Below are positions 9,663 through 27,793 of a stretch of DNA of 64,000 nucleotides, piece after piece. This DNA is from Labedaea rhizosphaerae (GTDB taxonomy: Bacteria; Actinomycetota; Actinomycetes; Mycobacteriales; Pseudonocardiaceae), in assembly GCF_004362825.1 (NCBI RefSeq), contig NZ_SNXZ01000003.1, positions 596,784 through 660,783 of the forward strand. The letters run 5' to 3'. The position numbers and the translations under genes were made by a program. Position 1 is the first letter of the stretch. Each line of letters starts with the position of its first letter. The notes under the pieces are model-generated. The model did not search any database and was not told the origin of the DNA. It saw only the letters and a program-made list of their open reading frames with translations.

Positions 9663-10048
9663 TACAGCCCCACCTCCACAGTCAATTCGTAGGCGGGCAG
9701 CTCAGCGCCGCTCACGGGGTACAGGGTTGGCGTGGCCGAGGCGACGGCCACGGGTTCGAGCCCGTCGAGGGCTGCGGTGATCTTGGGCAGGAGGCTCCAC
9801 ATCAGAGGCAAGGTCTTGGCGTCGGCCTTGCACACGAGGAACACCGGCCACGTGGCGCCCGATGGCGAGTAGGTGCGGGAGTATGTCCCCCACGTCAGCG
9901 TTGGTGCGCCGAGCACGATGCCTGGTGGCTGCACATCGGCGCCCGGGTTGGTGTAGACGCGCATGCCGTCCACGTTGGACAGCGCCTCAACGAGCAGCGC
10001 AGCGGCCTCAGCGACCACGCTGCTGGGCTCGGTGGTCTCCTCGCTCAT
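9662..10048 (-). CDS. Tail terminator-like protein
   Basis: 128 aa. An N-terminal helix (SSVVAEAAALLVEALSNVDG) is followed by beta segments (MRVYTNPGADVQPPGIVLGA, ending YELTVEVGL). This fold pattern and the place between the head-tail connector and the tube gene suggest the tail terminator. The start overlaps the connector stop (ATGA at 10045-10048). Confidence 0.65.
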   Translation of the reverse strand: MSEETTEPSSVVAEAAALLVEALSNVDGMRVYTNPGADVQPPGIVLGAPTLTWGTYSRTYSPSGATWPVFLVCKADAKTLPLMWSLLPKITAALDGLEPVAVASATPTLYPVSGAELPAYELTVEVGL

Positions 10049-10410
10049 GCGACCACCGCCCGCGCGTGCCGGCCAACGCGCAACATCTTCTCGATGTCCG
10101 CGTCGAAACTCGGCACGCGAGAGTTTCCTTGCTCGGCCATGGCGATCAGGGCGTCCGGGGACCGGCGCCGCGAGTGCCAGCGCCAGGCGAGCCGGACGGT
10201 GCCGAGTGCAAGATCCTGTGTCGGCACCTTGATGGGCCCGTCCGGGTCGCCGGTGTAGTTGACGTCCGAGCGCTTGCGCTCGACGTACGCCACCGCCGCG
10301 TCGAGCACGAGCTGCAGCTGCGCGTCGTCGCGGTCGTCGGCGCCCGACTCGCCCTGCTGATGCATGTCCAGCTTCAGCAGCGCGAGGTCGGGCGGCCAGG
10401 CGGTGGTCAC
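10045..10410 (-). CDS. Head-tail connector protein (gp6-like)
   Basis: 121 aa with a GTG start at 10410 that overlaps the previous stop. It is nearly all helical: LVLDAAVAYVERKR, then VPTQDLALGTVRLAWRWHSR. A helix ending VERKR and a second helix of the type ALxTVRLAWRWHxRR are typical of DNA-packaging or head-tail adaptor proteins in HK97-type phages. It follows the capsid gene by one gene. Confidence 0.75.
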   Translation of the reverse strand: MTTAWPPDLALLKLDMHQQGESGADDRDDAQLQLVLDAAVAYVERKRSDVNYTGDPDGPIKVPTQDLALGTVRLAWRWHSRRRSPDALIAMAEQGNSRVPSFDADIEKMLRVGRHARAVVA

Positions 10411-10955
10411 TCGGTGGCGTCCTTTCCGGACTCGTTGGGCTGCTCTGCAGCGGCGGTCACTGTGTCGCCCGGCTGGTCGCTGGCCAGGAAGGTGAGGCCG
10501 TCCCCGGTCTGGGCCGAGGCCTGTGCCTGTGCCTCGTCTTCGCCGTTCTCTCGCTCCTCAGCGGTCTCGTCGGCGTCCTCTTCGTTGACCGGGGTCAGCT
10601 GCGACTCGGGTCGCCAGCCGTACTCGGTGAGCACGAAGCCGCCCGCGCGCACCGGCTCGTTGGAGCCGGCCACGGTCGTCACCTGGACGGGCTCGGTGCC
10701 GCCCATGCGGTAGGCGTTGGTGACGGCAGGCAGTGGGCTTCGCTCGTCGACGTCCACCGCCTGGCCGTCGTCGGCCACCTCGGGCGCTGGCTCCGCGTCG
10801 GGCGCGAAGTCGTCGCCGTGCCCGGTGGTCGAGCCGCTGGCCGTCGGCGCGGCCTGCCGGGCCGGGTCCTCGAGCTGCTCGTTGGCCTCCGGCTGCGCGT
10901 CGGCGGCCTTGGGCTTCTGCTGTGCCGGCCGACGCCGGGTTCCGCGGGTGGCCAT
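10407..10955 (-). CDS. Acidic low-complexity protein downstream of the capsid gene
   Basis: 182 aa, rich in Ala, Glu, Asp, Gln and Pro. A short ordered segment in the middle (YRMGGTEPVQVTTVAGSNEP, then GGFVLTEYGW) is flanked by disordered acidic stretches. The start overlaps the stop of the portal-protease-capsid gene (TGATG at 10953-10957), so it is translationally coupled to capsid production. It could be a head-associated or decoration protein. No family was recognised. Confidence 0.6.
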   Translation of the reverse strand: MATRGTRRRPAQQKPKAADAQPEANEQLEDPARQAAPTASGSTTGHGDDFAPDAEPAPEVADDGQAVDVDERSPLPAVTNAYRMGGTEPVQVTTVAGSNEPVRAGGFVLTEYGWRPESQLTPVNEEDADETAEERENGEDEAQAQASAQTGDGLTFLASDQPGDTVTAAAEQPNESGKDATE

Positions 10956-12280
10956 CAGGCACCCACCGTGTGACGGATCGCGGTGATGCCGACGGGACGC
11001 AGCACCTCGGTCGCGAAGTAGCCGAAGAGCGCGAGGTCAATCAAGGCCGGACCATTGCGCTCTTCGAACCGGAAGGTGAGCAGCCCGCTCTCCCAGGCCC
11101 AGACGTCCTGGTCGTTGAACGCCAACAGATCGGCGTCGCCGGCGGCGTTGCCGGTCATCGACCAGGTGGGCTGCAGCGGCAGGCCGTCGAGGTTGTAGCT
11201 GTTGGTCACGACGTTGGCCGAACCGTAGGCGTTGACGCCTGTGCCCGCGGGGAGCAGCGGCCGCCCGTCGGCGTCCACCGCGGTGGCGACCGCGCTGGTG
11301 CCTTCCTGCGAGAGGTGCGCGCGGTTGAGCGGCGCGAAGCGGCGGAACGGGTACAGCGCCAGTTGGGCGCGGGCGGCACCGAGGAACTCCTTGCCGCCGA
11401 AGGTGCCGGCGGCCGCCGACCCACCGGTGCTGGTGGTGACCTGCGCGCCGGACGGGACGAAACCCGCGGTGATGGTGCCGCCCTGGCCGTTGGCGCCGTC
11501 CAGCTTGGCGTAGACCTTCTGCTCGGTCTGCTGCGAGTAGGACTCCTGCATGGCGTTCATCGCGATGGCGTCGATGGCCGGGTTCGAGCTGTCGACGATC
11601 TCGCGGGTGAGCTGGAACAGGCCGCTGATGCCGCCCGGGGTGACCGTGACGGTGCCGACCGAGATGGTGCCCGCGGTGGGGTTGGTGCCCTCGACGTGGT
11701 CGGCGGACAAGCCGGACGAGCTCACGAACTTCGGCACCGTGAACGGCGTGGCGTCGTTGATGGTGCCCCGGCTGACCGAGTTGACCAGCGGCCGGTTCTT
11801 CATCAGCTGCGTGACGTAGAGGTCCGGCCGGTAGCCGGGCGGGACGACCGCGGCCGCGTTCGAGGTGTTGGCCGCGAACATCGCCATGGCAGCCTGCTCG
11901 GCGGCGTCCTTGGTCTGTGCGGCGAACTTGTTGAGGCGGTCGCGGGCGTCGGGGTCGCCCTCGGTGCGCGCCTTCCAGGCGTCGCGGACCATGGAGAAGC
12001 CCTGCCCGTTCATGCTGTAGACAGGCGCCTCACGCGTCACGACGGCGCGGCCGGCGGGCACGACCTCGCGCTCACTGAACTGCGGGAACGGAAGCGCCTC
12101 GATCGCTGCCTTAACGCCCGCGGTCACCGCGTCGGTGAGCCCGGCGGTAAACGCAGCCGTGTCGAAGGGCAGCGCGGTGGCCTGCACGGTGGGCGGGGCC
12201 GTGGTGGTGGTTGCCGCGCCGGCGTCGGCAGCCGGGGCAGCGGGGGCAGCGGGCTGCTGCTCGGTGACCGGTGCGGTCAT
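10955..12280 (-). CDS. Probable internally initiated major capsid protein
   Basis: This nested start lies in frame inside the portal-protease-capsid gene. ATG 12280 (MTAPVTEQQPAAPAAP) follows GGGAAGGAAACCGAG, a good ribosome binding site, and falls exactly at the end of the protease domain. The 441-aa product would be a complete HK97-fold capsid protein with a flexible, helical N-terminal delta-like region. Hundreds of capsid copies but only twelve portal copies are needed per head, so separate capsid initiation would solve the stoichiometry problem. Its use is inferred. Confidence 0.6.
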   Translation of the reverse strand: MTAPVTEQQPAAPAAPAADAGAATTTTAPPTVQATALPFDTAAFTAGLTDAVTAGVKAAIEALPFPQFSEREVVPAGRAVVTREAPVYSMNGQGFSMVRDAWKARTEGDPDARDRLNKFAAQTKDAAEQAAMAMFAANTSNAAAVVPPGYRPDLYVTQLMKNRPLVNSVSRGTINDATPFTVPKFVSSSGLSADHVEGTNPTAGTISVGTVTVTPGGISGLFQLTREIVDSSNPAIDAIAMNAMQESYSQQTEQKVYAKLDGANGQGGTITAGFVPSGAQVTTSTGGSAAAGTFGGKEFLGAARAQLALYPFRRFAPLNRAHLSQEGTSAVATAVDADGRPLLPAGTGVNAYGSANVVTNSYNLDGLPLQPTWSMTGNAAGDADLLAFNDQDVWAWESGLLTFRFEERNGPALIDLALFGYFATEVLRPVGITAIRHTVGA

Positions 12281-14308
12281 CTCGGTTTCCTTCCCTGGGG
12301 TTTCCGGCGCTGTCGCGGCCGGAGATGCAGTGGCACTGGCCACCACGCTGGTGAGCCGCGCGTTGTCGTACGCGGGCGTTGCGGTGATCGCGACCTTGCG
12401 CAAGGTGGCGGAGTGGACGAGGCAGACCGTGTCGTCGGTGGGGTCCGTGGTCCAACCGTCGCCCTCGCCCGAAAAGTCGACGTACACGCTGAAGCCGTCG
12501 CGAACGCCGTCCTCGGCGAGCTGCAGAATGCGGTCGCCGTCCGCGCCACGGGCGACGCGAAACGTGCCGTCGAGCCCCGTGCGGTTGGACTGCAACCGAA
12601 CGGCCACGCCCATTTCGGTGCCGTCGATGTGGTTGTCGTCGAGCTTGACGCGGTTCTCGGCACCCCAGTGCAGCGAGCCCTCAGCGAACTTCCACCGGCG
12701 TCCGTTCGAGTACGCAACCTGGTTCCACGGCACGGTGAGACCTGAGACGGTGCGCTTCTCCGGGTTGACGCGGAACTCGGCGTCCACATCGGACAGCGCG
12801 AAACCTACCGTCACGCTCTCGGCGGTCGCGGATGGTGCTGTGAACGCCAGCGCGGGTTCGCGGCGGGTGTTCTGCACGGCGTCGCCCTCCGGGTTGTCCT
12901 CTGTGGTCGGATTCGCGGCCGCGCCGGGCTCGGCAGCCGGCTCGGCGGCGGCGGTTGGGTCCAGGAACGGGTCGACGTCGGCGCCGAGGCGGTTGAGGAT
13001 CACGCGGGCTTCCTGGACGGTCAGGACAGGGCCGACGCCGAGGTAGATCTTTTGTACGGCCTCGACGAGCGCACGCGTGTCAGCCGCGGTGGTGTCCTCG
13101 GGAGGTGCGGCGGCTGCGGCCGCATCGGCTGCGGCCTGGATGCGCTTGGCCTCGGGTATGGCGCTGGGGATGTCCTCGAGCTCGGCGATGCGCTCGTCGT
13201 CGTAGACGCCGACCTCGCGGCCGATCTTGTAGGTCTCCATGCGGGATTGGGTGTCGCTCCGCAGGAATCCGGCGTACTGGACCCGCGCGTAGTAACCGCG
13301 CGGCAGCACGTCGTTCATGCTCAGCCGGCCCTCGATGGCGGCGACGTAGGCGGCCAGCGTGAAGTCGATGAGGTCGAGGCGTCGCTGCTCGGCGTTCGCG
13401 TAGGTGCGCGAGGTGGTGCTGACGCCGAGCTCTTCGGGGTCGATACCCGCGTGCCGGCTGATCTCGAGCACGGCGTAGTCGCGCATCGAGGCGAGCTGCA
13501 ACTGCTCGGGGTTCCACTGCAGGGTCTTGGCTTCGAGCGCGGCTCCGACGTAGCCCCACGCCCGCGTGCGGCGCGCGGCTTCCCAGTTGTCGAGCACCGT
13601 CTGCACGTCGCCCTCGTCCTGCTCTTCCTGACCTTCGGCGGGACGGAAGTAGCCGAGCGGGAAAGGGCTGTCCGCGTTCGTGGCGGCGGTGCGGTCGAGC
13701 AGCATGGCGATGCGGATGGCGCGCGCCGCGGCGACCAGCAGCGGGTCGTTGGGCGAGTCGATGCGGATCAACTCGCGGTCGGGCACGTGCTCCCAGGCCA
13801 TGCCCTGCGGCGCCCCGGTGTCGCTGGACACGTAAACCCGCGCGTCCTGCCGCACGTTGACCGAGCGCGGTTCGAGTCGCCGGACTTTGGTGGGGAAGCC
13901 GTGCCAGCCGAACTCGGTGATGCGCAGCCAGCTGACGCCCTCGAACAGCATGTCCTCGACGATGCGGGTCATGGTCACCGACCGGGCGACGTCGACCTCG
14001 GGCTGCTCGACGAGCGGGTTCGGGACGCGGTTGCGCTTGGCGTCGTGCACGTAGACCGGCAGCACGCCAAGGGTTCCGGCGATCAGGTCGCGGGAGCGCT
14101 TGACGGCAGCAACGGTCATGGCCTCACGGCGGCTGACGCGCTGGTCGAGGGAGGTTGACGCACCGTTTGCAGCGAGCCATTCCGGGGTGGCGTCGAGCGC
14201 GAAGCTCAGCGGGGCAGCCTCAGTTCCGGGGTTGGCGAACGCGCCGGTGTCCTCTCCCGACACCGGCGCGCCCCGCCAAGAGCCCAGCACCCTCAGCCAA
14301 TCCCACAC
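10955..14308 (-). CDS. Fused portal - S78 prohead protease - HK97-type major capsid protein
   Basis: One open frame of 1117 codons from GTG 14308. Residues 1 to about 455 are an HK97-type portal (REAMTVAAVKRSRDLIAGTL, VLEISRHAGIDPEELGVST). Residues about 495-670 are a prohead protease: RTVSGLTVPWNQ, His560 in LDDNHIDG, Ser607 in DGFSVYVDF, and the closing LRKVAITATPAYDNARL. Residues about 677-1117 are the capsid domain (LMKNRPLVNSVSRGTIN, FQLTREIVDSSNPAI). The usual three genes are here joined through Ala/Pro/Glu-rich linkers without a stop. An internal ATG at 12280 (M677) has AAGGAAA about 5-6 nt before it, so free capsid protein of about 441 aa may also be made. Self-cleavage by the central protease would release the parts. 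Confidence 0.9.
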   Translation of the reverse strand: MWDWLRVLGSWRGAPVSGEDTGAFANPGTEAAPLSFALDATPEWLAANGASTSLDQRVSRREAMTVAAVKRSRDLIAGTLGVLPVYVHDAKRNRVPNPLVEQPEVDVARSVTMTRIVEDMLFEGVSWLRITEFGWHGFPTKVRRLEPRSVNVRQDARVYVSSDTGAPQGMAWEHVPDRELIRIDSPNDPLLVAAARAIRIAMLLDRTAATNADSPFPLGYFRPAEGQEEQDEGDVQTVLDNWEAARRTRAWGYVGAALEAKTLQWNPEQLQLASMRDYAVLEISRHAGIDPEELGVSTTSRTYANAEQRRLDLIDFTLAAYVAAIEGRLSMNDVLPRGYYARVQYAGFLRSDTQSRMETYKIGREVGVYDDERIAELEDIPSAIPEAKRIQAAADAAAAAAPPEDTTAADTRALVEAVQKIYLGVGPVLTVQEARVILNRLGADVDPFLDPTAAAEPAAEPGAAANPTTEDNPEGDAVQNTRREPALAFTAPSATAESVTVGFALSDVDAEFRVNPEKRTVSGLTVPWNQVAYSNGRRWKFAEGSLHWGAENRVKLDDNHIDGTEMGVAVRLQSNRTGLDGTFRVARGADGDRILQLAEDGVRDGFSVYVDFSGEGDGWTTDPTDDTVCLVHSATLRKVAITATPAYDNARLTSVVASATASPAATAPETPGKETEMTAPVTEQQPAAPAAPAADAGAATTTTAPPTVQATALPFDTAAFTAGLTDAVTAGVKAAIEALPFPQFSEREVVPAGRAVVTREAPVYSMNGQGFSMVRDAWKARTEGDPDARDRLNKFAAQTKDAAEQAAMAMFAANTSNAAAVVPPGYRPDLYVTQLMKNRPLVNSVSRGTINDATPFTVPKFVSSSGLSADHVEGTNPTAGTISVGTVTVTPGGISGLFQLTREIVDSSNPAIDAIAMNAMQESYSQQTEQKVYAKLDGANGQGGTITAGFVPSGAQVTTSTGGSAAAGTFGGKEFLGAARAQLALYPFRRFAPLNRAHLSQEGTSAVATAVDADGRPLLPAGTGVNAYGSANVVTNSYNLDGLPLQPTWSMTGNAAGDADLLAFNDQDVWAWESGLLTFRFEERNGPALIDLALFGYFATEVLRPVGITAIRHTVGA

Positions 14309-16423: not shown

Positions 16424-16714
16424 TCACCACCTTGTTCGTGGTTGCGGCGCCGGGTCGGGCGCCTTGGTTGGGTCACCGATGGCGTTGTTGCACGAGGGGC
16501 AGGCCGCCACCATGTACGCAGGGTCATCACCTGATGCCTTGCCCTGCGTGTGGTGCGCCTGGGTGGCTGTGCCCTCGCATTGGTGAGGGCGTGCGCCTTG
16601 TCGTGCGCACCAGCCATCGGCGTGCGCACGGCAGCGGTGGCCGTCGCGGTCGAGCACCAGCTGGCGCGCCTTGCGGTACGCCCGGGTGCTGCCCTTGTCC
16701 CACGCCTTGCTCAT
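16424..16714 (-). CDS. HNH endonuclease beside the terminase genes
   Basis: 96 aa from ATG 16714, overlapping the polymerase-fusion stop (ATGA). It shows MSKAWDKGSTRAYRKARQL, a zinc-binding CRAHADGWC and later HHTQGKASGDDPAYMV then CPSCN. The HH and N/H positions with the closing CxxC pair form an HNH nuclease fold. HNH proteins next to terminase genes assist cos cutting and packaging in several siphophages (established for HK97-like phages), which suggests cos-type ends here. Confidence 0.85.
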   Translation of the reverse strand: MSKAWDKGSTRAYRKARQLVLDRDGHRCRAHADGWCARQGARPHQCEGTATQAHHTQGKASGDDPAYMVAACPSCNNAIGDPTKAPDPAPQPRTRW

Positions 16715-19700
16715 GCCGAGTCCTGCCAGGCGAAGGCCGGCGCGCTCGGCTCGGCCACGATCCGCACGCCGAATAGCTCGGTCTCCATGCACCGCACCAG
16801 CTCGGCCAGCGCCGCGTCGGCCTCGGCCTCGGGTACCTGCACGTCCACCTCGTCGTGCACAGGCCAGAGCGTGCAGGTGCCCCAACGTGTGTCCTGCCAG
16901 CGGATCAGGGCGTCGATCAACAATTCCCTGGCTGTGCCCTGGATCAGGTAGTTGGGCGCCTTGTGCGGCCAACGCTTGTCGAGGTGGATCACGCGGCCGC
17001 TGTAGGTCGGGTACTGCGTGCCGCCCTGCTTCACCGCTTGCCGCACCTGCGCGGACCACGTGGCCACGCCAGGGCAGATCGCGTCGAGCGTGGCGGCAAC
17101 AGCGGCCGCCTCCGACTCCGGGATGCCGAGGGTGCGCGCGATGCCCGGGATGCCGGAGCCGTAGAGCCTGCCGAACACCGCGCGCTTGACGTGGTAGCGG
17201 TTGCCCTTGGTGGCATTCGGCCCGTAGACCTGGCGGGCGATCAACCAGTGCAGGCCGTCGCCCTCGCCTCGGTCTTCAGCGGCGATCAGCTGCGCGAGCG
17301 CCATGTCACCGGACAGCGCGGCCGCCACGCGCAGCTCAACGCCGGAGAAGTCCGCGCTGATCAACAGGTGCCCAGGGTCCGCGGTGATGCACGCGCGCAC
17401 GCCGCCCTCCCGGGGCAGCTGCTGGAAGTTCGGCCGCACGCAGGACATCCGACCGGTGTCGGCGCCGAGGGTGTAGATCGTGGGTCGGGCACGGCCGTCC
17501 CCGTGGCGCACGAGGTGGTGGTACGGCTTGAGGAACGTCCCGATCACCGTGTCGTGGTGCCGGAACGCGAGCACCTCGCGCGCCAGCTCGCCCACGGGGT
17601 TGTCCTGCTTGGACAGTGGGGTCAGCACGGCCTCGGCCACGCTCGGCCGCCCGCTCTTGCCCGCAGGCTGCAGGGGCGCGCCGAGCGCGAGCAGAGCATT
17701 GCCCACCTGGACGTCGCTGCCAGGGTTGTCGAGCTGACCCAGTTGGCGCACGCGTTCGCCGTGGTGCGCCCGCAGCGGCTCGTGCTCGGTCATGAGCCGT
17801 TCCACGTGCTCGCCGTCGATCCGCACACCCCGGTAAGCCACGCGGGCGGTCATGCGCTGCGCGATCCGCTCGCGTTCGTGCACGGCCGGGTCGGGCTTGG
17901 GCAGGTCCTGGTCGAGCGCGCCGGTGTCGAGCACGTCGCTGGCGGCGTAGATGGCCATGGTGCGGCAGCCGAAGTCCACCTGCGCCCATCCGGAGCGCTC
18001 AATGGGCGTGTCAACCTTGGTCTCGGTCAGCCACTTGCCCGCGGCGAAGAGGGCCTTGCGTGCCTCGTCGGCGGCCGGCGCGGTCGCATCCGGGCCGAGC
18101 ACCGCGGCCGAGATCAGTTTGAGCCCCGGGTCCGAACCGGTCTGCCGGGGGTCGGCGAGCTTGGCCGGGATCACGGTGTCGTCCATCCGCAGCCACGCCT
18201 CGTCGTAGTCGATCAGCTCGGCGTCGGCGAGGGGCACGAGATCGGCCGTCGCCGAGTGCGCACGCAGCCGGGGCGCTGTGGCGATGCGGGTGCCGATCAG
18301 CTCGGCGTGCTCGGCCGGATCGAGCACCACAGCGGCATGCCGGTCGCCGAGCTGCACGGTGCGCAGCGCGTACAGCTCGTGGCCCACCGGGTAGCCCGAG
18401 GTCTCCACGTCCACGGTGAGCCCGCCGGAACGGCTGGACGCTGCGTCGATGACCGCGGCCGCCTGCCCGAGGTCGAGGGGCAGCACGTTGCCCGCACGGT
18501 CCACCGCGAGCGGCAACGGCAACACCTCGCCGGCGGCTGCGGCGATGGCCGCTGCACGCTCGGCTGCCTTGGCCGCGCGCTTCTCGGCCGCCTTCTGCTC
18601 GCGGATCGCCGCGCGGCTCGGCTTGACCCCGGCGTCGACGAGCTCGCGGGCACGGTCGCGCACCGGCTCGCCAGCCGCCTGGCGCTGAGCGCGGATGATC
18701 TCGGCCTGAACTGGGCCGTCCGCGAGCAGTTTCGCGGTGATCTTGGCCGACTCGGCAAGGCGTGACCAGTTGGCCGAACCCGGAACACGCTGATCAGCAG
18801 CCGGATTGACCAACTCGTGTGACCGGTTGTAGGTCTCCGCCGGTTTCGCCTCGGGTGCGCGCGTACGCGCGTCATGCGCGCGCGCATGTGCGATAGGGGT
18901 GGGTGAACTGGTCACACTGGTCACCGAAGTTCCGAAAACCGGGGTGTGAGCTGCGGTTTCCGTGGTGTGACCGGTTGCCGTTGAACTGGTCACCAACTGG
19001 TCACCAGCGAGCGAACTGGTCACAGTTGGCCGGCCCAACCCAGGTCCCGCCGGACTCGTCGCCGTCGTCGTCGTCGTCGGAACGGGCAGCAGCGGAGCCC
19101 ATCCGCCGGGTCGGCGCAGCCGCAGCGGGCGGAACTTGCCGTCTCGGCGAGGCTCGGCCGGGTGGCCGAGGCCGGTCAGCTCACGGCCCCAGCGGGTCGC
19201 TGAGGGCACCGACTTGAGTCCCATGTCCCGGCACCACGTCACGAACGCGCGGTACAGCTCGCCGGCCTTGGTGCCGGTCGCGTCCGGCTCGGTCTCCTCC
19301 TCCACCCAGTTGGTGATCGGGTCCTGCTCGGCCGCGATCTCCTCGGCGCGCAGCCGGATCGAATCGGGTGCGGCCGCGGTGAGCGCGCTGGACCGGTCGG
19401 CCAGCCACCGGCCGGCTTCGTGGATCAGTTGTGCGAGCACGCCGGGCGCCTCGGCGCGCCACGCCGCCCCGTGGGTCTGACCGATCGCCGCCCGGGCAGC
19501 GCGCACGGTCTCCTCGTCGCCTTCGCACGGGATCAGGCGCACGCGGGCCCGGATGGCGGGGTCGGTGAGCACGGGCTCGTCGTTGGCGGTCAGCACGAGC
19601 GTGTGCGTGGGCCGGAAGCTGATCGGGTTGCGGTGCATTTGGTTGGCGGTGAGCATGGCGCCGCCGGTGATCTGCTTGAGTCGTTCCTGGGCCCATCGGC

Positions 19701-21600
19701 CTTCGCGCGGGCCTTCGTCCACAAACGACAGCCGCCTGCCGCGCAGGGCGTAGACGATGGACGCGTGCGCGGTGTCGGCTGCGCCGAGCAGCCTGGGATC
19801 TGCGGCGTGCGCGTAGCTGCCGAGCACGGACATGACCAGCTCGACGGTCTGCGACTTCCCGCGCCGGGTCTTGCCCAGCATGATCGGCATCGCCGCGTCC
19901 GGGTAGCCGGTGAGCGTGATGGCCAGCACGCGCAGCGCCCACGCACGCACCTCGGGGTCGGGCATGACGGCCGCCAGGAACGCGTCCCAGCGCGGCGTCG
20001 GCAGCCCGTCGACGGGCAGCACGGCGGCCGAGTGCAGGTGCGGCGTGCCCGGGTCGAGGTGCGCGGGCGTGAGCACGTCGGCGCTTGCGCGCAGGTCCCA
20101 CGGCACTCCCCCGGCCCAGAGCACTTCGGGCTCACGGTCGAGGTCGCCGAGCTCGACCGCGGACGGATGCGTGCCGGCGGCAACGAGCGCGGCCATCTTC
20201 CCGGCCACCTTGCGCGCACCGCCGTTGTCGAGGAACCGCTGGCGCTTCTTCGCGCGGTCGAACTCGTCGGAGCCCTTCTCGGCGTCCGGGTTGCCGCGCG
20301 GCATCAGGCCGGCCAGCTCGGCGACCGCCCACTGCGTGAGGTCCCCGCGGGTGTCCCAGCGCACCGGGCCGCGCAGCAGCCACGTGCCCGCGTCGGCGGC
20401 GTAGCGCAGCGCCGGGCCCATCCGGTCGAGCGCGGCCGCGGCCAGGGTCTGGTCCGAGCTGCCGCGCGGGTCGAACGGGTGCACGCCGATCACCTCGCGC
20501 ACCGACCACACCCGCGCGGGCGCGATCGGTTGCGGGTCGGTGCCGTCCGGGGTGTCGTTGGCCGGCGCCGGGGCGGCTACCTCGAGCCTGCCGACGAGCA
20601 GGCAGGGGTCGCGGTCGACCTGGCGGCCGCCGTACTGGGTGACGGCCTTGCGGGCGGCGGTGAGCAGGATCCGCTCCCACTCGTCGCCGCGGTCCTCGCC
20701 CGCGGTCACCTCGAACCAGAGCACGCCCAGGTCGTGCAGCGCCGCGCCGACGCCGGCGTGGCCTGCGGCGGCCAGCTGGACGAGTTGGTAGACGCGCTCG
20801 GTCGCGGTGTCGTGGCGGCCGCCCTCGTCGGCCTGGCCGAGCTCGGCGAGCGCGCGCTGCGCCGCCGAGTAGATCTCGGCGCACGCCGGGCGGCTGTCGT
20901 CCTCGAGCTGCGCGAGCAGCACTTGCCCGGCGTCCCGGCTCGCCGCGGCCGGCCCGGCCTCGGTGGCGCCTTCGCGCAGGCCTTCAATCCAGCGCGCGGG
21001 CAGCTCGGGTAGCTCGATCGGCTTGGGCACCTCGCCGTCGGGCAGCGGCCGCCCGTCCGGGCCGTACCAGCGGTACCGTGCGCCCTCGCCCGCGGCCGGG
21101 TTGTCCGAGGGCGCCACCACGGCGTAGCGGTGGTGGCGCTGAATCACCTCGATGTCCGGACCGAGCTTCGTGCGGTACCGGCCGCTGGGCACCCGGAAGA
21201 ACAGGATCCGGCTCGGCCCGGCCGCGGTGTCGGTGCCGCGCGCCGTCGAGCACCAGGTGTCCGGCAGTGACCCCCACTCGGCTTCCCGCGCTGCGAGCGT
21301 CTCGGCGCCGCGCTTGGCGACCTTGCCCTTGTCGTAGTGGTCTACATCGACCCCGATCACGGCCCACTCGCCGTTGTCCGGCAAGCGAAGCGCGATCGAG
21401 TGCGCCCCGTGGCTGCCTACCCACTGCACCAGCTGCAGCGGCTCGGTGTCGCGCCCGTCCGCGCCCGTGAACCCGACCGGCGGCGGGTGCTTGGTGTGCG
21501 CGGGCACCGGCAGGATGCACGGCCACCCAGCTTGCTGGTAGCCGAGCACCCCGGCGGCGAACGCCCCGGCTGGTGGACCTGGTGGCGCGTCGTCGATCAC
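16711..21600 (-). CDS. Replication fusion protein: AEP primase - SF3 helicase - 3'-5' exonuclease - family-A DNA polymerase
   Basis: 1629 codons from GTG 21600, overlapping the upstream stop. N-terminal primase-polymerase domain: catalytic Asp85 and Asp87 in VIGVDVDHYD, then VIQRHHRYAVVAPS. SF3/D5-like helicase: Walker A GKTRRGKS at 576-583, then LSFVDEGP, ITGGAMLTANQMHRNPISF and TLVLTANDEPVLTDP. A Thr/Ser-rich linker at about 840-920 holds DNA iterons. Exonuclease motif TVDVETSG at 1062-1069 (Asp1064, Glu1066). Polymerase A: motif A ADFSGVELR (Asp1417), motif B RYHVKRAVFGRLYGSG and motif C VHDEVDV (Asp1583, Glu1584). All main catalytic residues are present, so one chain could prime, unwind, extend and proofread. 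Such activities are usually split over two to four genes. Confidence 0.9.
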   Translation of the reverse strand: MIDDAPPGPPAGAFAAGVLGYQQAGWPCILPVPAHTKHPPPVGFTGADGRDTEPLQLVQWVGSHGAHSIALRLPDNGEWAVIGVDVDHYDKGKVAKRGAETLAAREAEWGSLPDTWCSTARGTDTAAGPSRILFFRVPSGRYRTKLGPDIEVIQRHHRYAVVAPSDNPAAGEGARYRWYGPDGRPLPDGEVPKPIELPELPARWIEGLREGATEAGPAAASRDAGQVLLAQLEDDSRPACAEIYSAAQRALAELGQADEGGRHDTATERVYQLVQLAAAGHAGVGAALHDLGVLWFEVTAGEDRGDEWERILLTAARKAVTQYGGRQVDRDPCLLVGRLEVAAPAPANDTPDGTDPQPIAPARVWSVREVIGVHPFDPRGSSDQTLAAAALDRMGPALRYAADAGTWLLRGPVRWDTRGDLTQWAVAELAGLMPRGNPDAEKGSDEFDRAKKRQRFLDNGGARKVAGKMAALVAAGTHPSAVELGDLDREPEVLWAGGVPWDLRASADVLTPAHLDPGTPHLHSAAVLPVDGLPTPRWDAFLAAVMPDPEVRAWALRVLAITLTGYPDAAMPIMLGKTRRGKSQTVELVMSVLGSYAHAADPRLLGAADTAHASIVYALRGRRLSFVDEGPREGRWAQERLKQITGGAMLTANQMHRNPISFRPTHTLVLTANDEPVLTDPAIRARVRLIPCEGDEETVRAARAAIGQTHGAAWRAEAPGVLAQLIHEAGRWLADRSSALTAAAPDSIRLRAEEIAAEQDPITNWVEEETEPDATGTKAGELYRAFVTWCRDMGLKSVPSATRWGRELTGLGHPAEPRRDGKFRPLRLRRPGGWAPLLPVPTTTTTATSPAGPGLGRPTVTSSLAGDQLVTSSTATGHTTETAAHTPVFGTSVTSVTSSPTPIAHARAHDARTRAPEAKPAETYNRSHELVNPAADQRVPGSANWSRLAESAKITAKLLADGPVQAEIIRAQRQAAGEPVRDRARELVDAGVKPSRAAIREQKAAEKRAAKAAERAAAIAAAAGEVLPLPLAVDRAGNVLPLDLGQAAAVIDAASSRSGGLTVDVETSGYPVGHELYALRTVQLGDRHAAVVLDPAEHAELIGTRIATAPRLRAHSATADLVPLADAELIDYDEAWLRMDDTVIPAKLADPRQTGSDPGLKLISAAVLGPDATAPAADEARKALFAAGKWLTETKVDTPIERSGWAQVDFGCRTMAIYAASDVLDTGALDQDLPKPDPAVHERERIAQRMTARVAYRGVRIDGEHVERLMTEHEPLRAHHGERVRQLGQLDNPGSDVQVGNALLALGAPLQPAGKSGRPSVAEAVLTPLSKQDNPVGELAREVLAFRHHDTVIGTFLKPYHHLVRHGDGRARPTIYTLGADTGRMSCVRPNFQQLPREGGVRACITADPGHLLISADFSGVELRVAAALSGDMALAQLIAAEDRGEGDGLHWLIARQVYGPNATKGNRYHVKRAVFGRLYGSGIPGIARTLGIPESEAAAVAATLDAICPGVATWSAQVRQAVKQGGTQYPTYSGRVIHLDKRWPHKAPNYLIQGTARELLIDALIRWQDTRWGTCTLWPVHDEVDVQVPEAEADAALAELVRCMETELFGVRIVAEPSAPAFAWQDSA
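18762..19023. repeat. Iteron cluster, probable phage replication origin inside the replication gene
   Basis: Five exact copies of the 9-mer ACTGGTCAC lie at 18907-18915, 18916-18924, 18985-18993, 18996-19004 and 19015-19023. One exact inverted copy (GTGACCAGT) lies at 18762-18770. Two one-mismatch inverted copies (GTGACCGGT) lie at 18819-18827 and 18967-18975. They fall in the Thr/Ser-rich linker of the primase-polymerase fusion and create its repeated VTSS-type peptides. Phage and plasmid origins often consist of such iterons inside the initiator gene, for example lambda ori within gene O. Confidence 0.65.
18858..18888. repeat. Two adjacent CG-rich palindromes beside the iterons
   Basis: CGCGCGTACGCGCG at 18858-18871 is a perfect 14-bp palindrome. 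CATGCGCGCGCGCATG at 18873-18888 is a perfect 16-bp palindrome. Together they form an almost uninterrupted alternating purine-pyrimidine tract that could extrude cruciforms or adopt Z-DNA. They sit 18 bp from the nearest iteron, so they may belong to the replication origin. Confidence 0.55.
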
Positions 21601-22343
21601 GTGTCACCCCCGCGCAGCTGCCGCAGGTTGGTCTGCTGGACAGCCGGGTCAGCCTGGACGCCCGTGGCGTAGCGGGCACGCGCCGCGGCGAGCTCGGCCT
21701 GATGGGCAGCCTCGACGAGCATCCCGTACACGACTTCGTAAATCGTGTCCGGCGTCAACGCCGGCGGGTTGTTGCGGCGCAATACGTTCAGAATGCCGAT
21801 GGCGAACTGTTCGGCGCTCACGTCCACCAGGAACGCGGTCGGTGTGCCCAGCTCGACCGGGTAGGTGTGCGCACCCAACCCGGATGGATCGCGCGGTTGC
21901 GTGTGCTTCGCGTGGATGACTACGTGCGTCGGCGTCCGGTCAATCATGACTTCGAGCCGGTGCCGCTCGATCACGACCCCGGCGATACCGGGAACGATCA
22001 GCGGCGGTGTGTCCCCGGTGACTTGCGCCCATTCGATCTCGTGCCGATCACGGTTCGGCCCACGGACGTTGACCGGCAGGTTGATCAGCTCAGGCCCGTG
22101 CTCGCCGACCACCGCAATGGGGGCGCGCGTGTCCGGCGGTCGGCGAGCCCCAGGACCGCGCGACAATCCGGGGAAGTCATCGTCCGGCAGCGGGTTCGAG
22201 CGGTGGGCGGCCCAACGGCTCTGGCACGTTTCGCTGCAGTAGTACGGGCTCGGGCCGTTCTCCTTGAGCGGCCGGCCGCACCCGCCGCACTCCTGCACGG
22301 CCACGGCGTCGATCGCGGCCAGGGTGGTGTCGAGGTCAGCCAC
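21597..22343 (-). CDS. Zinc-ribbon protein upstream of the replication fusion
   Basis: 248 aa. Near the N-terminus QECGGCGRPLKENGPSPYYC followed by SETCQSRW forms a four-Cys zinc ribbon (CxxC...CxxxC). The middle (GEHGPELINLPVNVRGP) resembles small beta segments found in phage tail proteins, and the C-terminal half is helical. The stop overlaps the replication gene start (GTGA), which suggests coupled translation and possibly a DNA- or primase-partner role. Function is unknown. Confidence 0.65.
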   Translation of the reverse strand: MADLDTTLAAIDAVAVQECGGCGRPLKENGPSPYYCSETCQSRWAAHRSNPLPDDDFPGLSRGPGARRPPDTRAPIAVVGEHGPELINLPVNVRGPNRDRHEIEWAQVTGDTPPLIVPGIAGVVIERHRLEVMIDRTPTHVVIHAKHTQPRDPSGLGAHTYPVELGTPTAFLVDVSAEQFAIGILNVLRRNNPPALTPDTIYEVVYGMLVEAAHQAELAAARARYATGVQADPAVQQTNLRQLRGGDT

Positions 22344-23603: not shown

Positions 23604-24241
23604 GCGATCACGCCCGTGTCGCGCAGCAGGGTGTCGGCTTCCTGGCCGTCGCACAGGCCGGTGTGTTGGTCGCAACATTCGAGAGCGCGGTGTACGGCCG
23701 CCTCGGCCTTGCGGCGCAGCTCTGCCGGGTCCGGGTTCGGGTCACGCTTGTACGTGACGACGTGGCCCTTGGAAAGCGCGTGCAGGGCCTCACCACGGGC
23801 TCGCTGCAGGTCGGACAGCTCAACGCTGACCCGGTGGTTCGCCTGGCGCAGTTCGGCCTCGACCCCGGTCAGCCTGGCCACCTCGGCGCGCAGCGTGTCC
23901 AGCTCGCCTTGGCGGCCGTCCAAGTCCGGATCAACGGAATCAGGCACCACCACCACCACCACGCCGCCACCGCTCTGCTCAAGTACGGTCGTCCAGCTCA
24001 CGTACCTGCTCGTGACAGGGTTGCACTTGACCCACGTCCCGCGCTGGGCCTCGAAGTCGATCCGGCGCCACCGCGTCATGTCGCCGGTTTCGGCGTAGTT
24101 GGCGGGCGCCACCACGGTCCCGCCCGGGGGCTCGTCCGGCAGCGTGATCAGCTCGCTCGGTTCGCTGAGCATGGCCGAAGGTGGCTCGCCCGGGAGCCGA
24201 GGCGGCTTCGGGTAGTCATCGCAGGCGTTGACGGCGTCCAT
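23600..24241 (-). CDS. Phage protein with a (CAC)n-encoded valine run and helical C-terminus
   Basis: 213 aa from ATG 24241, which overlaps the helicase stop (TGATG). The N-terminal third is Pro-rich. The middle contains TRWRRIDFEAQRGTWVKCNP, and a run of six Val after GGG is encoded by a CAC/GTG triplet repeat near 23946-23964. A long helix with coiled-coil character follows (LDTLRAEVARLTGVEAELRQ), and the end has paired Cys (ECCDQHTGLC). No known family was recognised. Confidence 0.6.
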   Translation of the reverse strand: MDAVNACDDYPKPPRLPGEPPSAMLSEPSELITLPDEPPGGTVVAPANYAETGDMTRWRRIDFEAQRGTWVKCNPVTSRYVSWTTVLEQSGGGVVVVVVPDSVDPDLDGRQGELDTLRAEVARLTGVEAELRQANHRVSVELSDLQRARGEALHALSKGHVVTYKRDPNPDPAELRRKAEAAVHRALECCDQHTGLCDGQEADTLLRDTGVIA

Positions 24242-26130
24242 CAGGCGGCTTCTTTCTGCTTGCGCGGCAATGGCTTGGGGTCTTCTCCGCCGAGCAGCTC
24301 GGCGACGATGCGGGGGTCTTGGACGAGGTCGGAGAGCTGCTGCGCCTTGTCGCGCAAGGCGTCGCGCACGCGGGCGTCGACAGTGTCGGCGGCCACGATG
24401 TCGATGACCTCGATGGACTCGTGGATCTCGCTGCCGATGCGGTGGGCGCGGTCCTCGGCCTGCAGGGCGTCGACGATCGACCAGGGGCGCTGCAGGAACA
24501 CGACGGTGCGCGCCGCGGTCAGGGTGATGCCGACGCCGCCGGCCGAGGTGGTGACGCAGATTAGGTCCAGGTGGCCGGCCTGGAACGCCTCGACAGTCGC
24601 GGTGCGGTCCTTGGCGTTCTGCCCGCCGACGACGTACCCGACGCGATACCCGGCCTTCGTCGCGGCCGCGCCGGCGAGCTCGACGAGCTGCTTGCTCGGC
24701 GCGAACGCGATCACCGGGGCGGCGAGCTCGCGCGGACCTCCGCGCTCCTCGAGCACGGCCAGCAGCTCGTCGACCTTCCAGCTCGGGGCCTTGAGCTTCA
24801 CGTGGTAGTGCGGGCGCTCCTGGCCTTCCCACGGGCCGCGCTCGGCTACACGCCACTCGACCTCGACGTCCGCGGCCGCCGCGGCGAGCATGTTCAGGCA
24901 CGTGAGCTGCATCAGCACGCCCTGCGCGGGCAGCTCGTCACCGTCGGGCAGCTGCGCGAGCATGTCGCACTCCATCTGGTCGTACGCCTTGCGGTACGCG
25001 GCGGGCAGCTCGACCGTGCGCACCGAGTAGACCTTGGGCGGCAACTGGTCGAGCACGTCGGCCTTGGCCACGCGGCGGTGCTGGCCGAGGATGGCCAGCC
25101 GGAACTCGGCTTCGCGCTCCGGCAGCAGCCCCAGCACGTCCTCGTCGTAGTCGCCGGCCACCGTCAGGCAGTAGCGGCCCACCCACCGCTCGCGGGACGG
25201 CCACGCCGCATCGTCGAGCGCGTTCAGAGTCGGCCACAGGTCACTCGGGTTGTGCGTGATCGGCGTGCCGCTCAACGCCACGATCGGGCCGTTCACCTTG
25301 TGCACCGCGCGGGCGAGCCGCTGCACCGCCAGCGTGCGCTTCGCCGTCGGGCTCTTGATCATGTGGCACTCGTCGATCACGAGCGCCACGGGGCGCAGCT
25401 CGAGCAACGGCCGGTGCCCGGTGCTGCCCACCGGCGCGTCCCGCCGAGCCGTGTCGTAGCTCACCACGTAGACGTCCGCTGTGCCGATGAGGCGCCGCCG
25501 CTCGCCCTGGGTGCCGCGCCACGCCACCGTGCGCACCGTGGGTGCCCACGTCCGCCAGGCGCTCACCCACGAGTCCACGACGGACGCCGGGCACACCACC
25601 AACACCGGCACAACGGACCGTTCGCCATGCTGCGCGCCGTGCTCGGCGAGACCGAGGATCGTGGTGATCGTCTTCCCGGTGCCCGGCTCGTCCGTGATCA
25701 GCGCCGCGCCGGTCGCCGCGATCAGCCGCGCACCGTCCACCTGGTACGGCCGGGGCGTGAGCCCGTCGGGCGCGCGGTACGCCAGCGGCGTCTGCTCGCC
25801 GAGCTGGTGCTCGACAGCGGTCCGCCGCCCGGCCTCGGCAGTGATCCACTGCGCCAGCCGAGGTTGCGGCCGCCACGCCGAACCGAACGTGGCGGCCAGC
25901 TGCACCACGGCCGGCCAGGACACCGGCACCGTCATCCCGCCGGCAGGCAGGCCGATCTCGCCCGTCGGCTTGCACAGCGGGGTGACGGTGCCGAGCAGCC
26001 GGGCCGCGTATGCGACCGCGGCCGGCGCCCCGACGCCGAGCAGCACCACGCGGGTGCCGTCGGCGGTCAGGTCGGCGTACACCGCGTACGGCGGCACGGC
26101 GACCTGGGACACGGACAGGGCGGTGGTCAT
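24241..26130 (-). CDS. SNF2-family DNA helicase/translocase
   Basis: 629 aa. Motif Q-like PRPYQVDGARLI, Walker A DEPGTGKT (GTGKT 150-154), Walker B DECH at 253-256, motif III VALSGTPITHNP, and helicase C-terminal motifs (VTTSAGGVGITLTAA, FLQRPWSIVDALQAEDRAHR). This is a complete two-domain SF2 helicase of the SNF2 group. In phages it probably serves replication or recombination; it follows the clamp-like gene with an ATGA overlap. Confidence 0.9.
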   Translation of the reverse strand: MTTALSVSQVAVPPYAVYADLTADGTRVVLLGVGAPAAVAYAARLLGTVTPLCKPTGEIGLPAGGMTVPVSWPAVVQLAATFGSAWRPQPRLAQWITAEAGRRTAVEHQLGEQTPLAYRAPDGLTPRPYQVDGARLIAATGAALITDEPGTGKTITTILGLAEHGAQHGERSVVPVLVVCPASVVDSWVSAWRTWAPTVRTVAWRGTQGERRRLIGTADVYVVSYDTARRDAPVGSTGHRPLLELRPVALVIDECHMIKSPTAKRTLAVQRLARAVHKVNGPIVALSGTPITHNPSDLWPTLNALDDAAWPSRERWVGRYCLTVAGDYDEDVLGLLPEREAEFRLAILGQHRRVAKADVLDQLPPKVYSVRTVELPAAYRKAYDQMECDMLAQLPDGDELPAQGVLMQLTCLNMLAAAAADVEVEWRVAERGPWEGQERPHYHVKLKAPSWKVDELLAVLEERGGPRELAAPVIAFAPSKQLVELAGAAATKAGYRVGYVVGGQNAKDRTATVEAFQAGHLDLICVTTSAGGVGITLTAARTVVFLQRPWSIVDALQAEDRAHRIGSEIHESIEVIDIVAADTVDARVRDALRDKAQQLSDLVQDPRIVAELLGGEDPKPLPRKQKEAA

Positions 26131-26843
26131 GCGGCTTGTCCGCCTGGCAGTTCGGTGTCGAAGCTCGCGGGCAGCCAGTCCAGTTCAAGCGCGCTGTCGA
26201 CCGCGGCCGCGCGCACCGGCATCACCCATGCTCGGTAGTTGTCGCCGATGCGGACGTGGGTCGGCCTGTTCTGGGTTTCGCCGGGTACGAGGGTCACGTA
26301 CTCGGTCGCGCCCCGCCGCTTCGCGATGCTCGCGAACAGCGCGAGGCACTTCGGCTGGTACAGGTGCGCACCACTGGTCTTCGGCAGCTCGTCGGTGAAC
26401 ACGCTCTGGTAGCTGCGGGTGCCCGACGTGTCGACGTTGACCTCGCAGTGCAGGGAGGTGCCGTCGACATCGATGTGCACGCACCGGCCGCCCCACTGCG
26501 ACTTCGCGCAGCCCGTCACGGTGGTCAGCTGGACCTTGCGAGCTTTGCGGCCGATCTTCACGAGCTGGTCGAGCGCCTCGCGGAACAACCACACTGGTTC
26601 GGGCAGGGCACCGCGCACCTCAACGCGGGCGTGCGCGCCGATGTAGCGGTCGGTGGTCCAGCCGTGCAGCCACCCGTCGGTGGTGTGCAGCCGGACGCAG
26701 GTGAGGATCGGCAGTACAGGGTCGGTGCCGGCCGACTTGAGCAGGTCGGCGAGCATGCCGACGAAGTCGCCGGCCGCGATCGGCTCGACGGTGCCGAGTG
26801 GCGCGTCGTTGACGGTCTCGGGCTTGGTTTCGGTGGTGGTCAT
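26127..26843 (-). CDS. Sliding clamp (beta-clamp)-like protein
   Basis: 238 aa. FVGMLADLLKSAGTDPVLPI, then HTTDGWLHGWTTDRYIGAHA, resembles the LPVL - DGxL - TDxR pattern in DNA polymerase III beta subunits. The C-terminal half ends with NYRAWVMPVRA, like the (I/L)MPxR end of clamps. It is shorter than the bacterial clamp of about 370 aa, so it may form a different ring or keep only two domains. Next to the helicase and upstream of a polymerase fusion, a processivity role is plausible. A start-associated motif precedes the gene. Confidence 0.65.
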   Translation of the reverse strand: MTTTETKPETVNDAPLGTVEPIAAGDFVGMLADLLKSAGTDPVLPILTCVRLHTTDGWLHGWTTDRYIGAHARVEVRGALPEPVWLFREALDQLVKIGRKARKVQLTTVTGCAKSQWGGRCVHIDVDGTSLHCEVNVDTSGTRSYQSVFTDELPKTSGAHLYQPKCLALFASIAKRRGATEYVTLVPGETQNRPTHVRIGDNYRAWVMPVRAAAVDSALELDWLPASFDTELPGGQAA

Positions 26844-26942: not shown

Positions 26943-27761
26943 TCAGGCCGCGGGCGGGGCGGCCTGGCCGGTCATCTGCGCGAGCAGCGCGGCTTGTGCC
27001 GGGTCCAGCCCGGGCGGGGCCGGGAGTGGCTGTGCGGCCACCGGTGCGGCCACCGGTGCGGCCGGCGTGACCGGCGGTGCGGGCGGCGTGACCGGCGGTG
27101 CGGGCGGCGTGACCGGCTGCGGGGTCTGCTGCTGCTCGGCAACCGGGGCCGGAACGGCTGTCGCGCCCTGGGGGCGCTGGTACCGGACCTGCTTGACCTT
27201 GCTGGGGTTCATCCCGGGTCCGTTGGCCTTGTCCGACACGTAGGTGATCTGGATGACGGCGCCGGCCTCGGGCGGGCCCGCCGGTGCGCCGGCCTCGGCC
27301 ATGGCCCGGTTCAGTTCGTCGCGGTCGGCGCCCTTCACGTACCAGGTGCCGAGGCCATCGGGCCGGTCCTGAGTCGGCTGCATCTGCAGTGGCACCTTCA
27401 TGACGAACTTCGGCGAGCCGTCGCGGAACACCAGCGGTCGGTTGTTGGTGTCGGTCTGCTGCGCCACGTCCGCCGCGGTGAGCGGGCGCGTCACGATGCC
27501 CACGTACGACCGGCCGATCACGTCGAAGGCCAGCGACTTGCCGCCGCCCGTCGATGGCTGGTTGTAGAACGCGTCCAAGCTGCCCTGCGCGAGCGGCTGC
27601 TGCACCGGCGGCGCCGGGTACGGCTGCCCGTAGCCCTGCGGTGGGTACGACATCGGCTGCTGCGGGTACGGGGCTGGCGCCGGGGGCTGCGGCATCTGCG
27701 GGGCCATCGGCATACCCACCATGGGCTGACCGGTGGCCGGGTCGATCATCGGGTACGTCAC
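26943..27761 (-). CDS. Putative ssDNA-binding/OB-fold phage protein, Pro-rich
   Basis: 272 aa from GTG 27761 (VTYPMIDPATGQPMVG), chosen for the AGGAGAG 8 nt before it; a longer frame upstream lacks support. A Pro/Gln/Met-rich N-terminus is followed by a core GSLDAFYNQPS, SYVGIVTRPL, FVMKVPLQMQ and TWYVKGADRDELNRAMAEAG, then ITYVSDKANGPGMNPSKVKQ. This order is familiar from phage proteins thought to bind ssDNA. The C-terminus is a VTPPAPP repeat and an Ala/Pro tail. Placed among helicase, nuclease and clamp genes, this role fits, but it is inferred. Confidence 0.6.
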   Translation of the reverse strand: MTYPMIDPATGQPMVGMPMAPQMPQPPAPAPYPQQPMSYPPQGYGQPYPAPPVQQPLAQGSLDAFYNQPSTGGGKSLAFDVIGRSYVGIVTRPLTAADVAQQTDTNNRPLVFRDGSPKFVMKVPLQMQPTQDRPDGLGTWYVKGADRDELNRAMAEAGAPAGPPEAGAVIQITYVSDKANGPGMNPSKVKQVRYQRPQGATAVPAPVAEQQQTPQPVTPPAPPVTPPAPPVTPAAPVAAPVAAQPLPAPPGLDPAQAALLAQMTGQAAPPAA

Positions 27762-27768
27762 TTGTGAC

Positions 27769-27785
27769 TCTCCTATGTAGACAGT
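27769..27785 (-). promoter_or_regulatory. Start-associated motif before the ssDNA-binding candidate
   Basis: Minus strand ACTGTCTACATAGGAGA; its GGAG lies 8 nt from the GTG at 27761. It matches the motif before the clamp-like gene at 14 of 17 positions. Confidence 0.5.
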
Positions 27786-27793
27786 GCTGTGAG

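Follow-up and report, generated by a model that had tools for sequence, protein, structure and literature searches.

How much of a replication system can a single polypeptide carry, and where on its own DNA does such a polypeptide start? The question is raised by a tailed prophage of the actinobacterium Labedaea rhizosphaerae, which lies in a stretch of 64,000 nucleotides of contig NZ_SNXZ01000003.1 (positions 596,784 to 660,783; this whole stretch is referred to as the window). Its replicase gene is a single open frame of 1629 codons on the minus strand (16711-21600), with a GTG start at 21600 and a stop at 16711; the start overlaps the stop codon of an upstream open reading frame (ORF) at 21597-22343. 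The first-pass annotation, which named no strand, described the gene product as four replication enzymes in one chain. The answer presented here, which is probably correct, is that the product is a one-polypeptide initiator-plus-replicase, and that the DNA encoding the linker between its two halves doubles as the replication origin of the element.

The four-enzyme chain is borne out by Pfam, PHROG, AlphaFold-model folds and catalytic residues. The domain order is AEP primase, SF3 helicase, winged helix, a linker of approximately 200 residues, Klenow-like exonuclease and family-A polymerase. Pfam matches are Prim-Pol PF09250 at residues 21-186 (E 1.5e-16), DUF5906/SF3 at residues 575-677 (E 2.6e-7) and DNA_pol_A PF00476 at residues 1286-1608 (E 2.6e-44); a match to D5_N at residues 390-545 (E 0.013) falls under the curated cut-off. 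PHROG 1156 'DNA primase' spans residues 10-816, while PHROG 17 'DNA polymerase' spans residues 1087-1625. AlphaFold models of residues 1-840 and 1040-1629 have mean predicted local distance difference test (pLDDT) scores of 89.1 and 91.1, respectively.

The first half of the protein contains the AEP (Prim-Pol) domain (residues 10-213, 20962-21573; like the gene, all domains are on the minus strand). Over these residues the model matches the pRN1 AEP domain 1rni (Z 10.3, root-mean-square deviation 4.1, 169 aligned residues), and related proteins align here as well. It is followed by a helical domain (residues 222-335, 20596-20937), seen as helices in the model and covered by a match to the pRN1 primase 9aam over residues 12-325 (Z 10.3); its position suggests a PriCT-like domain. 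The D5/SF3 AAA+ helicase (residues 380-745, 19366-20463) is supported by DUF5906, by hmmsearch against PDB and by its fold, which matches SaPI5, vaccinia/mpox D5/E5 and NrS-1 structures with Z 17-26. The matches to the SaPI5 primase-helicase (7ola, Z 24.7; 7om0, Z 24.3) extend to residues 820 and 830, and PriRep1 with double-stranded DNA (7pds) matches over residues 373-829 (Z 13.0). African swine fever virus and poxvirus primase-helicases lead the Foldseek rows; these are the nearest solved folds and no claim of descent is attached to them. The helicase has all the features of a D5-type SF3 protein, namely Walker A (576-583), Walker B (628-629), the motif C Asn and the D5 fold. Behind it lies a C-terminal winged helix (residues 766-830, 19111-19305), with strands at 770-778, 816-818 and 821-828 and helices at 779-792 and 801-810 in the model. 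Its beta-hairpin wing comprises residues 816-828 (19117-19155).

The second half of the protein is a Klenow-type Pol I, with a match to 6dsu (Z 29.4, residues 1-589 of the 590-residue model). It consists of a DEDDy 3'-5' exonuclease domain with Klenow/Bst fold (residues 1058-1235, 17896-18429) and a family-A polymerase domain (residues 1240-1627, 16720-17883), which is identified by PF00476, by a Taq/Klenow profile match and by its fold. Motifs A, B and C are present, as expected of a family-A polymerase with proofreading. Both the AEP and the exonuclease parts, on which the earlier proposal could have failed, are confirmed by profile or fold. Catalytic residues have been located in the helicase (Walker A K582, Walker B D628/E629, N673, R686), the exonuclease (D1064/E1066/D1120/Y1218/D1222) and the polymerase (D1417, R1468, K1472, Y1480, H1582-D1583-E1584). 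In an alignment of 12 fused proteins these residues and D85, D87 and E151 of the AEP domain are invariant, except Y1480, which is F in one.

Between the two halves lies the linker (residues 840-1050, 18451-19083), which contains the predicted origin. As a protein it is poorly conserved: mean pairwise identity is 0.13 over residues 845-1005, compared to 0.38-0.61 for the domains. GC content at third codon positions falls to 0.65. The word GTGACCAGTT, allowing at most one mismatch, has ten matches in 64 kb, of which eight fall within 262 bp of the linker (18762-19023); dinucleotide shuffles of the whole window (100) give a mean of 2.27 and a maximum of 7. Five of the eight linker copies are exact and three have one mismatch, as have the two copies elsewhere. 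These repeats are referred to as iterons. Iterons 1 (19014-19023, exact), 2 (18995-19004, exact), 3 (18984-18993, exact), 5 (18915-18924, one mismatch) and 6 (18906-18915, exact) run along the gene on the minus strand; iterons 4 (18967-18976, one mismatch), 7 (18819-18828, one mismatch) and 8 (18762-18771, exact) are inverted, on the plus strand. Six copies are in codon phase 0, iteron 2 is in phase 1 and iteron 4 is in phase 2. No protein constraint yields such a pattern of phases and strands, which is therefore explained by a constraint at the DNA level. An alternating purine-pyrimidine (RY) tract of 20 nt (18873-18892) lies between the direct iterons and the last two inverted ones, so that two iteron sets flank a central tract inside the fused frame. 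The length of the tract is reached by none of 200 codon shuffles; it is GC-rich, not AT-rich, and is a candidate unwinding element. The word GTGACCAG presumably resembles the P4 iteron.

The same arrangement recurs in relatives. Comparisons were made between loci labelled with L-numbers, among which L004 is the IMG/VR contig of this prophage itself. Non-redundant fused elements number 48, with the window's own included, after a filter that removes elements sharing half of their linker 16-mers. Arrays of at least six repeats are found in 40 of these 48 linkers. Codon shuffling was limited to the first 31 linkers, with 40 shuffles for each, and gives means of 2.5-4.0 and maxima of 3-7. The repeat word varies among elements (GTGACGGGTT, GTGGAGGGTT, CTGACGGGTT, GTGAAGGGTT and others) and is near-uniform inside each. 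The orientation order +++-++, RY tract, -- recurs in many linkers with similar spacing; the RY tract can be as long as 43 nt, and for 18 of 31 linkers none of 200 codon shuffles produces one of equal length. A scan of 18 whole fused loci places the best array within the linker in 14.

The repeat word itself changes together with the wing of the winged helix. In a training set of 25 elements, residues 822 and 817 are the alignment columns most informative on the middle bases of the iteron; both are located in the beta-hairpin wing of the AlphaFold model. For base 5, residue 822 tops 550 variable columns (z 14.4; next 7.0). The rule is simple: Lys or Trp at 822 goes with C, and any other residue goes with A. 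Residue 822 and base 5 also switch as a pair between close relatives, namely L036/L033 (85% identical over residues 1-760), L027/L028 (80%; N and K at 822, respectively) and L108/L031 (68%). Among 19 new elements, ten have at least six repeats and a clear register; the base 5 rule is right in all ten of these held-out elements, some of which may be cousins of training elements under the filter used. The base 4 rule ('A if and only if His817') is likewise right in 10/10, including a base combination not seen before, GC, in L161 and L187. Across all 35 elements with clear register the class of residue 822 matches base 5 in every case, and residue 822 ranks first of 195 columns (z 17.0; next 6.6). 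Training words were entered by hand; the register of the 35-element set was assigned by a script that did not use the protein. Fitch reconstruction gives nine changes for base 5 and nine for the class of residue 822, with agreement at every tip. The winged helix is therefore named here as the predicted reader of the iterons, through residues 822 for base 5 and 817 for base 4 and, more weakly, residue 819 for base 1.

The fused frame is whole in close relatives. A scan of viral contigs by alignment to the AEP-SF3 half yields 80 loci, and 29 of these are fused in one frame of 1515-2005 codons; their AEP-SF3 halves are 40-100% identical to that of the window, the upper value being the window's own element. 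In the same set, a contig end truncates four loci, and another 47, which represent the more distant AEP relatives, are unfused: their AEP frame is closed and has no PolA inside (in one, L067, a separate PolA adjoins it). Fused genes are also found on genome contigs of Micromonospora and Nocardioides (isolate genomes) and of a Jatrophihabitans metagenome-assembled genome, and a Haloactinopolyspora genome contig has a PolA fusion with a different front end. After two further scans (L024-L054, L104-L110 and L113-L212, a redundant set), 98 of 100 SF3-winged-helix open frames continue into PolA; the remaining two are L047, which is cut by its contig, and L209, which is truly unfused. In collections of 50,697 phages and 72,556 plasmids, not a single record matches at least 80% of the protein in one place. 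Partial matches occur in 3602 phage records and 482 plasmid records, and phages often have one half or the other by itself (881 and 3437 records).

Partners on either side of the linker can differ. The PolA of this clade is joined to another D5-type helicase protein in L110 (with an N terminus that is AEP-like as judged by eye), to a protein with AEP plus AAA_25 in L197 and to a DUF3854 protein in L149. Conversely, L046, L050 and L107 keep the AEP-SF3 half and have a PolA that is distantly related (26-30% identical where it matches). The linker is therefore also the joint at which modules differ. L110 has its own array (11 copies, shuffle maximum 5), as has L197 (seven repeats, shuffle maximum 5); L149 has no clear array (four copies, shuffle maximum 4). 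The polymerase may have been captured more than once, across an origin or next to it. A separate observation concerns the polymerase part of two fused relatives, where intein-like inserts are visible by eye in L031 (approximately 10030-10700) and L043 (approximately 10290-11330). The L043 insert begins with Cys and ends with Gly-Asn before Ser; the L031 insert has an HNH-like stretch.

Unfused loci show an equivalent of the linker array between genes. In L205 and L207, an AEP-family gene and its stop are followed by an array of seven 9-mers that fills the gap (shuffle maxima 5 and 4, respectively), and then by a PolA gene (43-44% identical to the PolA part in the window). In L209 the AEP-SF3 gene is followed, approximately 1.4 kb on and past a 206-codon ORF, by an eight-copy array (shuffle maximum 5) with a 32-nt alternating tract, directly 5' of a separate PolA; in L211 an array lies directly before PolA. 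Repeats between separate primase and polymerase genes are the order expected before fusion. Unfused AEP-type loci were scanned more widely (40 of 49 loci; the near-duplicates and cut contigs L059, L065, L071, L075, L084, L087, L088, L089 and L102 were left out, with no other de-duplication). The top array has at least eight copies in eight of these 40 loci, and seven of these eight arrays are at the AEP gene's 3' end; the centre of the best window is at most 650 bp from the AEP gene end in 18/40. An exact 8-mer test on nine AEP or P4-family loci (L015-L023) finds clear arrays only in L019 and L023, 3' of primase genes. These two arrays are candidate origins in their own right: L019 5802-6014 in Gordonia phage Djokovic and L023 4484-5016 in Streptomyces plasmid NZ_CP108574, both directly 3' of the primase gene.

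Other candidates for an unfused counterpart were dropped. The earlier statement that most phages encode these enzymes separately holds in so far as related actinophages have neighbouring primase-helicase and PolA genes; six aligned primases of this group are CHC2/Toprim-like by eye, not AEP, and these phages were rejected as the unfused ancestor. An exact 9-mer test on ten such actinophage loci (L005-L014) finds no iteron-like arrays, only GC-rich, palindromic or short-period words. Gordonia phages Fury and GTE8, whose genes carry the label 'DNA primase/polymerase/helicase' or similar, are not PolA fusions either; the genes have 845 and 850 codons, and Fury has a separate DnaE-like gene.

There are a number of observations that weigh against an origin in the linker and against the wing-base correspondence. 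Firstly, the excess of repeats in the window is narrow when codons are shuffled (eight observed; mean 3.7 and maximum 7 in 40 shuffles of its linker). Eight of the 48 linkers are weak, with fewer than six repeats (L049, L050, L126, L140, L150, L159, L166 and L202); L049 has a few iterons by eye and is still counted as weak. The RY tract is ordinary in 11/31 linkers (shuffle p 0.07 or more), and the best array is outside the linker in four of 18 fused loci (L041, L050, L052 and L054, the last with a weak array of four copies and a shuffle maximum of 5). Secondly, the minimum over 200 tip shuffles (mean 12.1) is likewise nine changes of base 5; base 5 thus partly follows descent, with many independent switches and some shared descent. 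The 35 elements are those used out of 48; the other 13 had too few repeats or a register of poor quality, and this cut was chosen after the table had been seen. L146 (repeat CAGGACAGTT, K822) breaks the base 5 rule if its register is right, and is a likely counterexample; L052 would also break it, although its wing does not align. Among the other left-out elements with at least six repeats, L040 fits the rule, and in L158 and L206 no residue aligns at this position. Two training elements depart from the base 4 rule: the window's own, with P817 and base A, and L029, with Q. For base 1, column 653 has a z above that of residue 819, and the link between this base and residue 819 is only suggestive.

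A further adverse point concerns the AEP active site. Residues D85 and D87 (motif I DxD) and E151 are invariant in all 12 rows of the fused-protein alignment, and E151 is a third acidic residue, presumably that of motif III. The histidine of GGxH/SxH is known as motif II. It is absent from the window's AEP domain in the alignment with relatives: plasmid relatives L022 and L023 have PSGGLH and PSGGRH at this place, while the protein in the window has PSRIL and its relatives have PSGIR, PSRIR or TSCIR, with a gap (L110 was excluded from this comparison because its row is read out of frame). Priming by this domain is uncertain because the usual motif II histidine is missing. Membership of the AEP fold stands; judging by the alignment, the canonical active site does not. 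Consequently, the claim that all catalytic residues are visible holds for the helicase, the exonuclease, the polymerase and AEP D85/D87, and fails for motif II. S118, R121 and H157 are invariant in a 40-row AEP alignment that includes distant unfused relatives, and these residues may constitute an altered AEP active site.

Among other explanations of the locus, one is that the long frame yields two proteins, with internal initiation or cleavage in the linker setting the polymerase free. The linker is certainly long and, at an identity of 0.13, unconserved as protein. An in-frame ATG occurs within 300 nt before the polymerase in 24 of 48 elements, and an in-frame start with a four-base Shine-Dalgarno core in ten of 48; a control stretch of the helicase gives 48/48 and 6/48, respectively. 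However, codons 816-1110 of the window contain no ATG. Of the 99 uncut frames of the redundant set, in which in-frame stops are absent by definition, 98 retain the fusion. The other two frames of the linkers are full of stops (286 and 302 over 9960 codons), and if the two halves acted separately there would be little to account for a linker frame that stays open. Separate products are thus unlikely, and the chain is predicted to remain uncleaved.

It is distinctly improbable, too, that the repeats are operator or copy-control sites, at which the winged helix represses its own gene or handcuffs copies while replication starts elsewhere. Iteron-binding initiators often autoregulate as well, and the covariation, being drawn from sequence, supports predicted binding at most, not initiation. 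The sites nevertheless lie within the coding region approximately 2.6 kb from the start codon, which is a poor position for a repressor; in addition, known origins of related systems resemble these sites both in the arrangement on two sides of a central tract and in the location 3' of AEP-type primase genes.

The repeats could also be a low-complexity Val-Thr-Ser linker with no role as DNA; several copies encode VTSS-like peptides, and six of the eight share a codon phase. This is highly implausible given the copies in phases 1 and 2, the three copies on the opposite strand, the arrays between genes in unfused relatives and the covariation of the repeat with the wing. Finally, indels can create fused frames, and the chance that sequencing or assembly error made this one is negligible because close relatives carry the fusion too (29 of 80 loci, the Micromonospora and Nocardioides isolate genomes, and the further PolA fusion in Haloactinopolyspora).

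The genes next to the replicase fit a replication operon in part. The SNF2-type helicase that had been placed in the same operon is present (24241-26130, minus strand). The proposed Fe-S nuclease is retained as a nuclease: the protein at 27794-28609 (minus strand), in the same operon, matches a PHROG exonuclease family (PHROG 1674, E 3.6e-57). The proposed clamp-like protein is ambiguous; for the candidate ORF, 26127-26843, a RusA-like resolvase family (E 4.8e-10) is a better match than a processivity-factor family (E 8.4e-6). The single-stranded DNA-binding candidate is unconfirmed, the ORF at 26943-27878 matching a PHROG of unknown function. A PAPS-reductase family protein (28606-29412, minus strand, E 3.3e-21) is encoded beside these genes. 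Elsewhere in the prophage, an ORF of 1117 amino acids (10955-14308, minus strand) fuses a phage portal domain (residues 68-378) to a major capsid domain (821-1064). The IMG/VR contig L004 (36,277 bp) maps from approximately -2331 to 33945 in window coordinates; the predicted element consequently starts just left of the window.

For an initiator-plus-replicase with its origin in the linker, replication might proceed as follows. The C-terminal winged helix of the AEP-SF3 half would bind the iterons, using its wing to read base 5 as a minimum and probably base 4 too. SF3 subunits would then assemble, presumably as a hexamer, between the direct and inverted iterons and melt the alternating purine-pyrimidine tract. 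The AEP domain would make a primer, and the tethered exonuclease-polymerase would extend it with proofreading. The ancestral order would have been primase gene, stop, iteron origin and polymerase gene; once the stop was lost, translation would have crossed the origin and the repeats would thus have become linker.

Whether the whole replicon is contained in one ORF is a bolder claim, and one that could go either way. It would combine the origin in the protein's own linker with a code of residue 822 for base 5, residue 817 for base 4 and perhaps residue 819 for base 1, and with concerted switching of specificity. If true, such switching would keep coexisting prophages from starting each other's replication. 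For this clade of actinobacterial prophages, both the origin and the residues that specify its bases are predicted from sequence alone, which makes origin recognition of the SF3 type testable. The locus also suggests that a cis-acting origin can persist even though it is translated, its product serving as a flexible joint between the enzymes of one protein.

One-chain replicases are already known, as are SF3-winged-helix initiators with 3' origins. Among the open-access literature matches listed, none describes this family-A fusion, an origin in its coding linker, or a wing-base correspondence. Phage-inducible chromosomal islands (PICIs) have their origin directly behind the replication gene, on its 3' side, where two sets of iterons flank an AT-rich region (PMC6092414). 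The replicase gene in the window resembles the pri-rep-ori modules of P4-alpha and SaPI in its D5-type SF3 with C-terminal winged helix, and in having, immediately 3' of the helicase module, iterons in two sets with a candidate melting site between them. It differs in that those modules have the origin after the gene and no fused polymerase, while the central tract of the window is RY and GC-rich rather than AT-rich. In pRN1, an essential region that acts in cis is located 3' of orf904, the gene of an AEP-SF3-winged helix-turn-helix protein (PMC4234260). This replicon uses a stem-loop rather than iterons and has no fused PolA; the window has both iterons and PolA.

The lambda O protein is an initiator without these enzymatic domains. 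The arrangement of its origin is nevertheless similar: the lambda origin is inside gene O, and the coding sequence of the initiator contains its own iteron origin (PMC7466680). In the window, the iterons are likewise inside the coding sequence of their own predicted reader, as identified by covariation. Fusions of a PolA-related domain to a D5-type helicase are represented by the TV-Pol-S3H proteins (Sputnik V13 and others), where the TV-Pol domain is N-terminal, minimal and a proposed primase (PMC2579912, PMC3671162). In contrast, the protein in the window has a complete exonuclease-polymerase at the C terminus and a separate AEP domain.

The nearest one-chain replicase is GP55 of lactococcal phage 1706, in which helicase, AEP, exonuclease and polymerase form one biochemically characterised chain (PMC12205980). 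The first-pass annotation was right about the one-chain replicase, and missed both this characterised protein and the probable origin in the linker. In GP55 the C-terminal polymerase belongs to family B, and the AEP domain is accompanied by an alpha-helical domain peculiar to this protein (PMC12205980), whereas the chain in the window combines SF3, winged helix and family-A polymerase, with a predicted origin in the linker. Three mentions of an origin noted in the GP55 paper do not refer to a replication origin. The protein of the Labedaea prophage is thus a family-A counterpart to the published family-B replicase, and a candidate for self-priming DNA synthesis in vitro.

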